Source: Thermoplasmata archaeon | GTDB taxonomy: Archaea > Thermoplasmatota > Thermoplasmata > Thermoplasmatales > Thermoplasmataceae | Direction of reading: 5' to 3' | Assembly (NCBI GenBank): GCA_021835025.1 | Contig: JAKBQY010000059.1 | Span: forward strand, 1 to 43,935 | DNA length: 43,935 nt | Part shown: in pieces, positions 34,743 through 39,141 of the stretch | How positions within the stretch are numbered: the stretch's first letter is position 1 | How the letters are laid out: every line of letters starts with the position of its first letter | Position numbers and translations under genes: made by a program | Notes under the pieces: generated by a model | Databases searched by the model: none | What the model was told of the DNA's origin: nothing | What the model saw: only the letters and a program-made list of their open reading frames with translations

Positions 34743-35098
34743 TCATGTTAAATCTGTGAAGCTTCCCTTATCATTCACAAAACTTGAATATATGTGTATA
34801 ATACTTTTTAGGTATTCCAATATAAAAGTAGAGGTTTTAGTGCCCATAGGCATATATCCCCTGCCTTCCACGGATATATTATTTTTTAAAATATTTATAG
34901 ATGCAATAATATCCATATCAATAGGGAAATTGCATGATTCACAATTGAATACCCCTTCATTAAAACCCATTTTCTTCCAGTGACCCTATATTGATGTCTC
35001 ATTTATTGCATCTTCAGTACTTTTAAAAGTTCTTTTTTTTGTCCGAAATTAAACCCGTGGAATATCATTTTGCATGTTCTTTCACTTGAAAAGTACAA
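34743..35098 (-). pseudogene. TnpB (IS605 OrfB) C-terminal remnant
   Basis: On the minus strand this stretch keeps the end of a TnpB protein. FSSERTCKM appears near 35090-35070 in one frame, and after a frameshift VFNCESCNFPIDMDIIASIN (about 34942-34880) follows, which is the second CxxC of the zinc ribbon and the (D)xDxNASINI motif. A TnpB-like tail with VEGRGYMPMGTKT and VNDKGSFTDL ends at 34743. Frameshifts, a stop and the missing N-terminal RuvC parts show that it is dead. It lies in the 430-nt gap between the DUF35 and MutS-like genes, which otherwise holds AT-rich DNA. Confidence 0.6.
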
Positions 35099-35160: not shown

Positions 35161-36654
35161 TTATTTTCCAGCAATTATATTATTATTAAATATTTCTTTG
35201 AATAGGTCAATTGCATATCCTGTGTCTTCAGGCTTTCCCTTTATAATTTTGTATGTTCTTTCTCCCGTATTGGTTCTTTCAGCCTTTAAAAAAACGGTAT
35301 CTCCCCCTCTTTTAATGTACATATATGGCAATTCATAAAAATGGGTAACGAATATTGTATCTATATTTTTTTCCTTCAATGCATCAATGATTTCTGAAGC
35401 CACGTAAGATCCTTCTAACGCATCCGTGGATGAAAATGATTCATTAAATAAAATTATAGACCCTTTTTTTACATGATCAATAATACCATTCAATCTTTTA
35501 AGTTCTTCACCAAATTTTCCCATCTTTAATTCTGGATCCTCCTCCCTTTTGAAATGAGTGAATATTTTTTCATAAATCTTTGCGTTGAATTTTGTTGCAG
35601 GGACATACAAGCCGGCTCCCATCAATAAAATACACTGCCCTACACCTCTCAAAAATGTTGATTTTCCACCCCTATTTGCCCCGGTAATAAATATCAATTT
35701 TGAATTTATATTTTCAATGGAATTATTCACAATATTTTTTCCTATTCTCAATGCCAGTGAAAGATCATACATTGATTCATATGATATTTCATTATATTTG
35801 TTAAATTCCGGAAAACATACCTCAAGATTCAGTTCCGTAATCTTGTTATAAAGATTTATACATCCTATGAGCATCCCCAGTTCTCTATTCAAGGATTTCA
35901 TGAAACCCAAAATATTTTTCGCTGAATCCTTTAAAATTCCAGAAAATGTATATAAAATTTTCTTTTTCAAATCAGCAATGGCCTCAGCCCCTGCTATATC
36001 CCTTGGTGGAAGTGTATATGTATAATGTTTATTTTTTATTGAAACGATGTTTGGTAAATGCACCCTTCTTTTTTTATATGTCAAAAGCTTGAAATCTGAA
36101 AGCATACTATAATCTCCAATTTTTCCAGAAGCGTAAATAACCTCAGTATTAATCTGATTTAATGAATTTTTAATTTTATCAAGATATTCTTCATTGAATT
36201 CTTCAAGAATAAGGTTAAAAAGATGAGCAAATCCTTTAGAATTAAAATGGGCTTTTTCAGAAATCGCAATATCACGAAGTTTTTTAAATGAATCGATATA
36301 GGTATTTATTATGTCTTTTGATGTCATTATAGATAATGATGGATTATTTTCCGACATCCAGAGAAAATTCTTTTTCGCTTCATTTATAGCATTTAAAATG
36401 ATTTTATACATATTTATAACTGTTTTCTGGTTATTTAAAGCGTCTTTTATTGTATTTTGGCGATAATACATTTCATTTTCATTATTAACTGGATTAAATA
36501 ATAGCTCAATCGATAAATTCCGGACATTATTGTCCTCACCACCCATTATATCAAATATTTTCTCCAGTTCCAGGTCCTTCTTAAGAATATCATATTCCCA
36601 TGGCAATTTACATTCTTTTATATTACTATTTTCATTAAAAAGAGATGTAATCAT
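35161..36654 (-). CDS. MutS-like ATPase B (MutS C-terminal domains only)
   Basis: A 497-residue protein consisting of a MutS-type lever/core region (1-300) and ATPase domain, without the mismatch-recognition and connector domains. Walker A is TGANRGGKST (324-333), Walker B ends ILFNESFSSTDALEGS (401-416; NE where classical MutS has DE), and the TH motif is present in FVTHFYELPYM (435-445). It belongs with the short MutS-like families seen in some bacteria and archaea, whose function is unknown. It overlaps the upstream MutS-like gene by 4 bp, so the two products probably form a heterodimer. No MutL is nearby. Confidence 0.83.
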   Translation of the reverse strand: MITSLFNENSNIKECKLPWEYDILKKDLELEKIFDIMGGEDNNVRNLSIELLFNPVNNENEMYYRQNTIKDALNNQKTVINMYKIILNAINEAKKNFLWMSENNPSLSIMTSKDIINTYIDSFKKLRDIAISEKAHFNSKGFAHLFNLILEEFNEEYLDKIKNSLNQINTEVIYASGKIGDYSMLSDFKLLTYKKRRVHLPNIVSIKNKHYTYTLPPRDIAGAEAIADLKKKILYTFSGILKDSAKNILGFMKSLNRELGMLIGCINLYNKITELNLEVCFPEFNKYNEISYESMYDLSLALRIGKNIVNNSIENINSKLIFITGANRGGKSTFLRGVGQCILLMGAGLYVPATKFNAKIYEKIFTHFKREEDPELKMGKFGEELKRLNGIIDHVKKGSIILFNESFSSTDALEGSYVASEIIDALKEKNIDTIFVTHFYELPYMYIKRGGDTVFLKAERTNTGERTYKIIKGKPEDTGYAIDLFKEIFNNNIIAGK

Positions 36655-38129
36655 TTTATCCTCTCCATCAATTTATCCTTTGTAAGGTTATATTTATCAG
36701 CAAGACTTTTTGCATATGCACTTCTATTTTCATAATCTTTTATTATTTTATATGTTCTTTCGAAATTTTCATTTACCTGTGCGGACATTCTTACCGAATC
36801 ATCCATATCTGAAAGTGAGTCAATAAATGTTACATAAAAGGCCCTCGATCTTTTATCCCTTATCATTTTTATTATTTCCCTTCCTAAAATTGAAGCATCA
36901 GAAAGCATGGCAGAACTCAACATCTCGTTTATGATTATTATGCTGTTTTTAGTGCTTTTTTCAATTATGCCTTTTATTCTCTGTAAATCATCTTCAAGTT
37001 TTCCCCTTAGATTGTCAAGATTTTCAGATTTTTCAAAATGTGTAAATATATTATCATAAAAGTTTAATTTTGCATCTTTACCCGGAACTGGCAATCCCAT
37101 ATTCCCCAAAAAAAGCATTTGGCCTATCATTCTTACAAATGTAGTTTTCCCTCCATTATTCGGGCCTGTGATAATTATAATATTTTCATTTTTTATAAAG
37201 CTAAAATTATTTTTAACTATGTTATTGTAGTTTTTGTATGCAAGTGAAAGATCAAAGCAATCCTTTCCAAAAATATTATTGTCATATGATATATCGGGTA
37301 AACAGAAATTCAGACCATTTTTCTTGAGTCTACGTGTATAATTTTCATATGCCATAAAGAACTTTATTTCGCTGTAAAAGTTATCTATGCCATTATCGAT
37401 AAAATTTTCATATTTTTTGCAAAATTTTTTTAAATCCAGAAATGTATTATTGTAAAATTTATATATAAAATTCAGGAGATAAGCACCAACATGCGACATA
37501 TACGTTTCATTTTTAATTTCCTCATCTTTTTCTGTAAATTTTTTAAAAAGTGATTTTATATATACCGTATAGTCGTCCATATTATCATTATCAAGGAATA
37601 CAGTTATTTTATCTGATGAAATTTCCATATTATATTTTATTTCGGAAATTTTTCCCCTCATTATGTTGGTATCTTTTTCCATTTCTTTAAAATAATTATT
37701 TTCCATGTAAACTTTAAGGTATTCACGAAAGTTAGAAAGACCCCTTGATAAATTATCAATTGATAAAAAATAATTATAAAAATTAATTAACGTGGAAATG
37801 TAAATTTGAATTGCAGACAAAATTACTCCATATCTCTGTTTATCATAATATTCATCTATATTTTTTATTGCATTTTTTACAGAAAAAAAATTGAATATGA
37901 AATTATCAATTAATTTATAGGTTTCAGTTTTTTCAATGTCGTGGAATATTTCCTGCCTGTATTTTACATCATCAATTGTTTTTGGCCTTGCAAAAAAAAT
38001 ATTTTTGTCAATATCATATTTATCCTTTAAAACACCCTCAATTATATCATCGATTGAAAGATCATGAAAAAATTCATATTTGTTTGAAATATAATTTACA
38101 TTGTTTAATAATATGCTTTTATATTCCAT
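36651..38129 (-). CDS. MutS-like ATPase A (divergent partner)
   Basis: A 492-residue homologue of the next gene with the same domain layout. The ATPase domain has TGPNNGGKTTF (321-331) and IIIINEMLSSAMLSDAS (397-413), but the usual Thr-His after Walker B is Thr-Phe (AFYVTFIDSLS, T434-F435). A conserved FDLSLAYKNYNNIVKN (292-307) precedes the ATPase in both partners. A modified switch residue in only one of the pair suggests asymmetric ATP sites as in eukaryotic MSH heterodimers. The first gene of a two-gene operon, divergent from an unrecognised gene at 38359. Confidence 0.8.
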   Translation of the reverse strand: MEYKSILLNNVNYISNKYEFFHDLSIDDIIEGVLKDKYDIDKNIFFARPKTIDDVKYRQEIFHDIEKTETYKLIDNFIFNFFSVKNAIKNIDEYYDKQRYGVILSAIQIYISTLINFYNYFLSIDNLSRGLSNFREYLKVYMENNYFKEMEKDTNIMRGKISEIKYNMEISSDKITVFLDNDNMDDYTVYIKSLFKKFTEKDEEIKNETYMSHVGAYLLNFIYKFYNNTFLDLKKFCKKYENFIDNGIDNFYSEIKFFMAYENYTRRLKKNGLNFCLPDISYDNNIFGKDCFDLSLAYKNYNNIVKNNFSFIKNENIIIITGPNNGGKTTFVRMIGQMLFLGNMGLPVPGKDAKLNFYDNIFTHFEKSENLDNLRGKLEDDLQRIKGIIEKSTKNSIIIINEMLSSAMLSDASILGREIIKMIRDKRSRAFYVTFIDSLSDMDDSVRMSAQVNENFERTYKIIKDYENRSAYAKSLADKYNLTKDKLMERIK

Positions 38130-38274
38130 AATATCAAATCATTAAACATTATTAAAGGCTTTTTATGTACACAGACATTCTCCATACATTTTATTTTAAT
38201 TTCCAGCAATATCCAGACCAGTTTATAGCAAAGGAAATATTTCTGAAAATGTATATTTTTTATTTACCGAATCC

Positions 38275-38358: not shown

Positions 38359-39141
38359 ATGGGACTATTTTCAAACATTAAAAAATATAAATCAGCATAT
38401 AAAAATTATATCACTGTTGCTTTTGAAGCAAACAGAAAAAAGAACAGAATTATATTATCCATGAAAAATGGGAAAAGGGCAATATGGAATTATGAAAAAA
38501 CGAATTTATACACGTTATCCACATTTTATCCCGAAAGTAGCAAAAATATAGATTTCTATACATTTGAAGATACAAAATTGCCGAATTGCATAAATTTTAG
38601 GTATAAAACAGGTCCTTTAATGATGTGCGGCCTTGATAATGATGATGATTTTGCGGACGTTTTTATTTTTGAAAGATTATCCTTTCTTACAACAAAAAAT
38701 GAAGATATTCTTTGTATATCCGAGGATAATGGCGAATCCTTTATATATTTTTCAATAAATGATTATTCGACCAATAATGAAAGTAAAATTTTTGGTATAA
38801 ATCCAAATAAGGAAAATGCAAATAAAAATTTAAAGATAAATGACATTGAAAAAAGAATAAAATTATTAAATTATGAATATAAGAATGGATCAGATATTAA
38901 ATTGAAAACAATAATGAACGAAAACAATATTAATTCAGGGTATTTATTTATTGATTCAAGGAATTCTGAAGATAAAATACTTGAAGAAGAGAATGAAATA
39001 CTTAAGAAGTTCAGTAAAATTCAAATAAAGGTTTATAACAAGAACAATTTATTGAAGGTCAAACTTGAAAATGCGGGTTTTAAGCTCAATACCGTTAAAA
39101 ATCCCCACAATGAAATATTATATTTAAATGCAGAAATATAA
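38359..39141 (+). CDS. Uncharacterised protein divergent from the MutS-like operon
   Basis: A 260-residue soluble protein that I do not recognise. The N-terminal half contains KKNRIILSMKNGKRAIWNYE and later PLMMCGLDNDDDFADVFIFE; the C-terminal half is acidic and lysine-rich with NNINSGYLFIDSRNSEDK, and a short helical end with EENEILKKFSKIQIKVYNKN. The central part suggests beta strands, and the end could bind a partner. Its promoter carries TTTATATATCCTAAAA immediately before the ATG and another AT-rich element at 38319-38332. Divergence from the MutS-like pair hints at a functional tie; nothing in it is a known nuclease or MutL motif. Confidence 0.65.
   Translation: MGLFSNIKKYKSAYKNYITVAFEANRKKNRIILSMKNGKRAIWNYEKTNLYTLSTFYPESSKNIDFYTFEDTKLPNCINFRYKTGPLMMCGLDNDDDFADVFIFERLSFLTTKNEDILCISEDNGESFIYFSINDYSTNNESKIFGINPNKENANKNLKINDIEKRIKLLNYEYKNGSDIKLKTIMNENNINSGYLFIDSRNSEDKILEEENEILKKFSKIQIKVYNKNNLLKVKLENAGFKLNTVKNPHNEILYLNAEI

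Follow-up and report, generated by a model that had tools for sequence, protein, structure and literature searches.

The two overlapping genes MutS-A and MutS-B lie in a contig of 43,935 nucleotides from an acid-loving Thermoplasmata archaeon (JAKBQY010000059.1, assembly GCA_021835025.1); the whole stretch is called the window here. Our best explanation, to which we assign a probability of about 0.5, is that their products belong to a distinct family of paired MutS-like ATPases which serves the fluoride-stress response and acts as a heterodimeric remodelling clamp. The role of the family is probably in surviving fluoride rather than in DNA mismatch repair. This fluoride link goes beyond what the sequence of the window alone showed.

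The initial annotation had described a pair of MutS lever/ATPase genes without mismatch-recognition domains, with Asn-Glu in both Walker B motifs and with a Thr-His switch in one chain and Thr-Phe in the other. All of this was borne out; both open reading frames are present and have the ATGA in common (Table 1).

Table 1. Features of the MutS pair and its surroundings in the window.
Feature	Position	Strand	Description
Short ORF downstream of the pair	34743..34970	minus	like the TnpB C-terminal zinc-binding end (PF07282, E 9e-4, below cut-off)
MutS-A, downstream gene	35161..36654	minus	497 aa, MutS core/lever + ATPase
ATGA stop/start overlap (translational coupling)	36651..36654	minus	4 bp; kept in 15 of 17 archaeal loci
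MutS-B, upstream gene	36651..38129	minus	492 aa, MutS core/lever + ATPase
MutS-B leader, riboswitch site in relatives	38130..38194	minus	only ATGGAG and TAATGA look-alikes, no pairing arm
Protein beside the pair	38359..39141	plus	260 aa, no known family
MutS-A motifs			TGANxGGKST, THFKREED, GKF signature, FNESFSST Walker B (SIILFNE), VTH switch (VTHF)
MutS-B motifs			TGPNxGGKTT, THFEKSE, GKL signature, IINE Walker B (IIIINE), VTF switch (VTFI)

The short ORF just downstream of the pair is probably the remnant of an insertion sequence. Relatives of the 260-aa protein also occur near the pair in two other genomes (G011 and G027), about 7 kb away.

The two chains score 74 and 65 bits with the Pfam model MutS_V (cut-off 30), and the host genome (1.68 Mb, 96% complete) encodes no other MutS_V protein. 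In profile-profile alignments the full length of each chain falls on the core, lever and ATPase domains of canonical archaeal MutS (E = 3e-23 for A and 1e-29 for B), and the two chains align with each other from end to end (E = 3e-68). Both Pfam and the profile alignments place the start of the chains at the core domain, and MutS domains I and II are absent. The ATP site carries the diagnostic residues of the family. The Walker B Asn-Glu is found in 29/29 A and 27/27 B proteins from archaea and bacteria; the switch residue is His in every one of these A proteins and Phe in every one of the B proteins. The MutS signature RG(R/Q)STF is changed to G(K/R)(F/L) in both subunits, and the window chains have GK(F/L). 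AlphaFold2 models built from 3-row alignments were too poor for a fold search (mean pLDDT 38 for A and 46 for B).

The two genes travel together. Among the host and 60 relatives MutS-A occurs in 17 genomes, each time with MutS-B immediately upstream. Across the phylum, 16 of 390 surveyed genomes have full-length A, with B adjacent in all 16; the remaining matches are mostly longer frames, as is typical of canonical MutS. Both archaeal surveys combined give 22 genomes with the pair, and the genes are adjacent in 22/22. These genomes belong to the family of the window except for one (G051), which comes from a second family of the same order. The genes that flank the pair are not conserved from one archaeal locus to another. 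A scan of genome contigs gave a match only in a sister species (MAG TL1-3.bin39), and viral contigs contained one partial relative of A and none of B.

Outside the archaea the pair is found on plasmids, with near-full-length matches in 46 records for A and 45 for B. The relatives of the two proteins lie side by side there and have ca. 25-36% identity over nearly their full length. The hosts are Klebsiella, Enterobacter, Citrobacter, Burkholderia, Caballeronia, Rhodococcus, Mycobacterium, Rubrobacter, Alicyclobacillus and Tsukamurella. On two plasmids part of the pair is missing: in one (L097) B is present only as a fragment near copies of IS26, and in the other (L096) A is present and B was not detected. 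Chance can be excluded as the cause of the arrangement because the pair recurs across genera with the same order and overlap.

Next we analyzed the relationship of A and B in a tree of 60 ATPase domains rooted on canonical MutS. The archaeal and bacterial A proteins group together (support 97/82), as do the archaeal and bacterial B proteins (94/83), and A/B and canonical MutS form separate clades with a support of 100/100. Since the A clade and the B clade each span both domains of life, the split between A and B is probably older than the spread of the pair between them. At the level of sequence, these comparisons show A and B to be old paralogues which were co-inherited across Archaea and Bacteria, always as a translationally coupled pair and with fixed, different ATP-site residues in A and in B. 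The initial annotation had predicted an obligate dimer with unequal ATP sites, a view that occurrence of the genes singly in relatives would have contradicted; none of the 22 archaeal genomes has either gene alone, and the two lineages run in parallel. The strongest case that the sequences make for an obligate heterodimer lies in this lock-step inheritance and the fixed asymmetry, and an obligate, unequal A-B heterodimer is strongly favoured as the predicted form of the proteins. The window pair is under purifying selection (dN/dS 0.11-0.15). Its synonymous divergence from the relative at locus L034 is 0.27-0.32, while three neighbouring genes show the much higher values of 0.69-0.89; this hints at a recent exchange of the pair or at a stronger constraint on it.

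The link to fluoride comes from the leaders of the pair. In 15/17 archaeal loci MutS-B is immediately preceded by a fluoride riboswitch (RF01734); three of these 15 matches exceed the cut-off of Rfam and the others, which are below it, were judged by their conserved core. The archaeal leaders have the core GATGGAGT...CTGATRACTCCT in common. A comparison of riboswitch and mutS positions found the riboswitch at 0/14 of the canonical mutS genes in the same genome set. The leaders thus show that the predicted mRNA of the pair usually starts with a fluoride riboswitch. An association of this kind has been known since 2010, when Weinberg et al. named mutS among the genes under the crcB motif, and the authors, who had found these RNAs upstream of mutS, proposed DNA-damaging stress (PMC2864571). 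The pairs described here have the same regulatory association and are very probably the genes that were meant. The available part of that paper gives them one line on DNA repair; the pair structure, the asymmetry, the parallel lineages and the missing repair components do not appear in that part. We came across no account of the anatomy set out here, with its pairing, its asymmetry and its presence in both domains. A literature search for KamB/KamC and for fluoride with MutS gave nothing relevant beyond PMC2864571 and PMC3149608, and MutS does not appear in a more recent review on resistance to fluoride (PMC11139923).

A second riboswitch in the archaea with the pair precedes an operon of the NuoH/HycD type. 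This membrane hydrogenase/complex-I operon stands behind the riboswitch in all 18 relatives that were examined for it. The host genome (G000) has a riboswitch-like leader on contig 6 (C6:7241-7299; 25 bits, below cut-off) at the corresponding operon (locus L069:837-7299). In one relative (G028) a riboswitch precedes crcB. The host genome has a CLC protein, and CrcB was not found in it.

The window itself departs from this pattern. Its pair is not preceded by a riboswitch detectable with Rfam, and a covariance model of 14 leaders from archaea reached 2.7 bits at best; none was found before the pair of the sister species either. On the upstream side, the DNA similarity between the window and this sister species extends about 36 bases beyond the start codon and stops there. 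Apparently the riboswitch in front of the pair was lost in the genus of the window and the genes were retained, so that their expression is probably constitutive or controlled in another way. As a consequence the fluoride assignment of the window pair rests on its family membership and not on its own leader.

The plasmid pairs lie within fluoride islands with genes for crcB, eno (enolase), ppa/ppaC (pyrophosphatase), gpmA, uspA and an antiporter. Their company in bacteria thus consists of fluoride exporters and additional copies of enzymes that are inhibited by fluoride. One layout is antiporter-uspA-mutS-mutS adjoining P-type ATPase-crcB-gpmA-eno-uspA-ppaC; a second is eno-DUF190-ppa-eno-mutS-mutS-dynamin-ppa, and a third contains PAP2-MFS-eno-crcB. 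Fluoride riboswitches were found in 11/12 plasmid loci, including an unannotated one from Caballeronia which was judged by its riboswitches alone. The genes beside the plasmid pairs are those of the FRM operon of Enterobacter cloacae (ppaC-uspA-eno-gpmA-crcB plus a transporter), and an operon with the same enzymes confers fluoride resistance by experiment (PMC5533749). The available main text of that study mentions neither MutS nor mismatch repair. A divergent pair from Tsukamurella (L094:9001-11996) has about 25% identity and the same diagnostic motifs. It sits beside aroBKC genes and dnaE, in a context that is not related to fluoride and has no fluoride riboswitch. The family may hence have more than one role.

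Other MutS-like relatives were found outside the fluoride setting. A gut contig labelled as phage (L099:1057-5548) carries a pair of the A/B type immediately downstream of hydG (905 bits), the gene for the [FeFe]-hydrogenase maturase; its position suggests that MutS-like ATPases in pairs also work for other systems of enzymes or cofactors. A contig from a viral collection (L098:3963-5693) encodes a single MutS-like protein of 576 aa beside an integrase, with an NE Walker B and THF/GRL motifs and with no partner gene on the short contig piece. We rejected the idea that Asn-Glu is an adaptation to fluoride, because L094, L098 and L099 have it without a fluoride context; the Walker B Asn characterizes the subfamily more widely. 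A function as an anti-phage defence system was also discarded, as the PADLOC matches were weak and mostly generic (E of 1e-4 or worse).

Could the pair stand in for mismatch repair in archaea that have neither MutS/MutL nor NucS? The idea has some appeal, since the 17/17 pair genomes of the first survey have no canonical MutS, and none of the pair genomes has NucS or a MutL above cut-off. The initial annotation had noted the lack of a MutL nearby, and there is none above cut-off in the whole host genome either. However, about half of the family of the window has neither the pair nor MutS/MutL/NucS. The survey of these repair genes, which the annotation had proposed as a check, hence finds them absent with and without the pair, and we rejected a replacement of mismatch repair for this reason. 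A and B also lack a mismatch-recognition domain, and in bacteria such as Klebsiella and Enterobacter, which already possess their own MutS and MutL, the pair is an accessory plasmid cassette. A substitute repair system is in our judgement very improbable. The core and ATPase domains of canonical MutS (TIGR01070), which works with MutL, align with the pair from end to end, but the pair has no domains I and II and no MutL, and its Walker B and signature are altered.

The predicted heterodimer would contain a more competent ATP site in A, with the switch His, and an altered one in B, with the switch Phe. It could close, like the clamp of MutS or MutS2, around a macromolecular complex that fluoride has jammed, and spend ATP on remodelling or freeing this complex. 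Its most likely targets would be enzymes or nucleotide-binding proteins locked by Mg-fluoride-phosphate. In this sense the pair more probably remodels complexes that are stalled or locked by fluoride than senses mismatches or junctions; the remodelling step is what we infer. A narrower version, which we hold tentatively and at less than even odds, makes the pair an ATP-driven 'fluoride reactivase', a heterodimeric clamp that pulls apart enzymes and nucleotide-binding complexes locked by Mg-fluoride-phosphate.

The analogy for such an activity is KamC (NCBIfam NF052383), the reactivase of lysine 5,6-aminomutase, a MutS-like ATPase of about 500 aa with a function not concerned with DNA. The reactivase idea was raised because KamC is the closest curated model of A, though far below cut-off (94 bits vs 300; B reaches 44 bits), because a pair of the A/B type adjoins the HydG maturase gene and not a DNA-repair gene, and because the genes under the same regulation stand in for, or protect, enzymes inhibited by fluoride; each of these is a slight hint. 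The KamC model is matched by 16/16 archaeal A proteins. Unlike KamC the pair is not adjoined by an aminomutase gene, and PF09043 (lysine 5,6-aminomutase) had no match in the host genome, nor in any control genome.

Two further readings take their model from known MutS homologues. Heterodimers of unequal subunits, as proposed for the pair, are known from MSH4-MSH5 and other eukaryotic MSH proteins; these are larger and act with MutL homologues, while the pair has no such partner. MutS2 (TIGR01069; Bacillus subtilis MutS2) likewise has core, clamp/lever and ATPase and lacks domains I and II. It is a homodimer with DE and a canonical signature, whereas the pair consists of two different chains with NE and GK(F/L); with the MutS2 model, whose cut-off is 400, the two chains reach 75 and 51 bits, and they have no SMR match and no KOW domain. 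On these models the pair could be a clamp of the MutS2/MSH4-5 type on branched or damaged DNA, which protects or restarts replication or recombination under fluoride. The domain set fits this, the solved structures closest in sequence include MutS2, and in MutS2 the lack of domains I and II leaves a large cavity for junction DNA (PMC12292046). The DNA-damaging stress suggested in the 2010 paper (PMC2864571) points the same way. Yet there is no Smr nuclease, no MutL and no DNA-repair neighbour in any examined locus, and the pair is accompanied by exporters, antiporters and metabolic enzymes that fluoride targets. We therefore consider such a DNA clamp rather unlikely. The initial annotation had predicted a role on DNA structure rather than on mismatches; its second half agrees with the missing domains I and II and the missing MutL, but its first half lacks direct support, and the genomic context points to fluoride stress.

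Still less probable is the idea that the pair, like MutS2 of B. subtilis, splits ribosomes or translation complexes stalled by translational GTPases which are trapped in Mg- or Al-fluoride states. MutS2 splits collided ribosomes with the same core and ATPase (PMC10897456), and the best PDB matches of A are MutS2 chains; A and B, however, lack KOW and SMR, the domains that recruit MutS2 to ribosomes.

Together, these results place the mutS genes of the crcB riboswitch, which were attributed to DNA repair in 2010, in a separate and consistently paired family without mismatch-repair equipment. They are also a warning against labelling such pairs as mismatch repair where a genome lacks this system. 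If the reactivase reading is true, the pair would give fluoride resistance an arm that repairs at the level of proteins, next to export and the over-production of targets; it would also be a branch of a wider group of MutS-like remodellers, with KamC acting for the aminomutase and the HydG-linked pair for hydrogenase maturation. The family is conserved from Thermoplasmata to Klebsiella plasmids, and it raises the testable question of whether an ATP-driven rescue machine takes part in fluoride resistance and what its substrate is.
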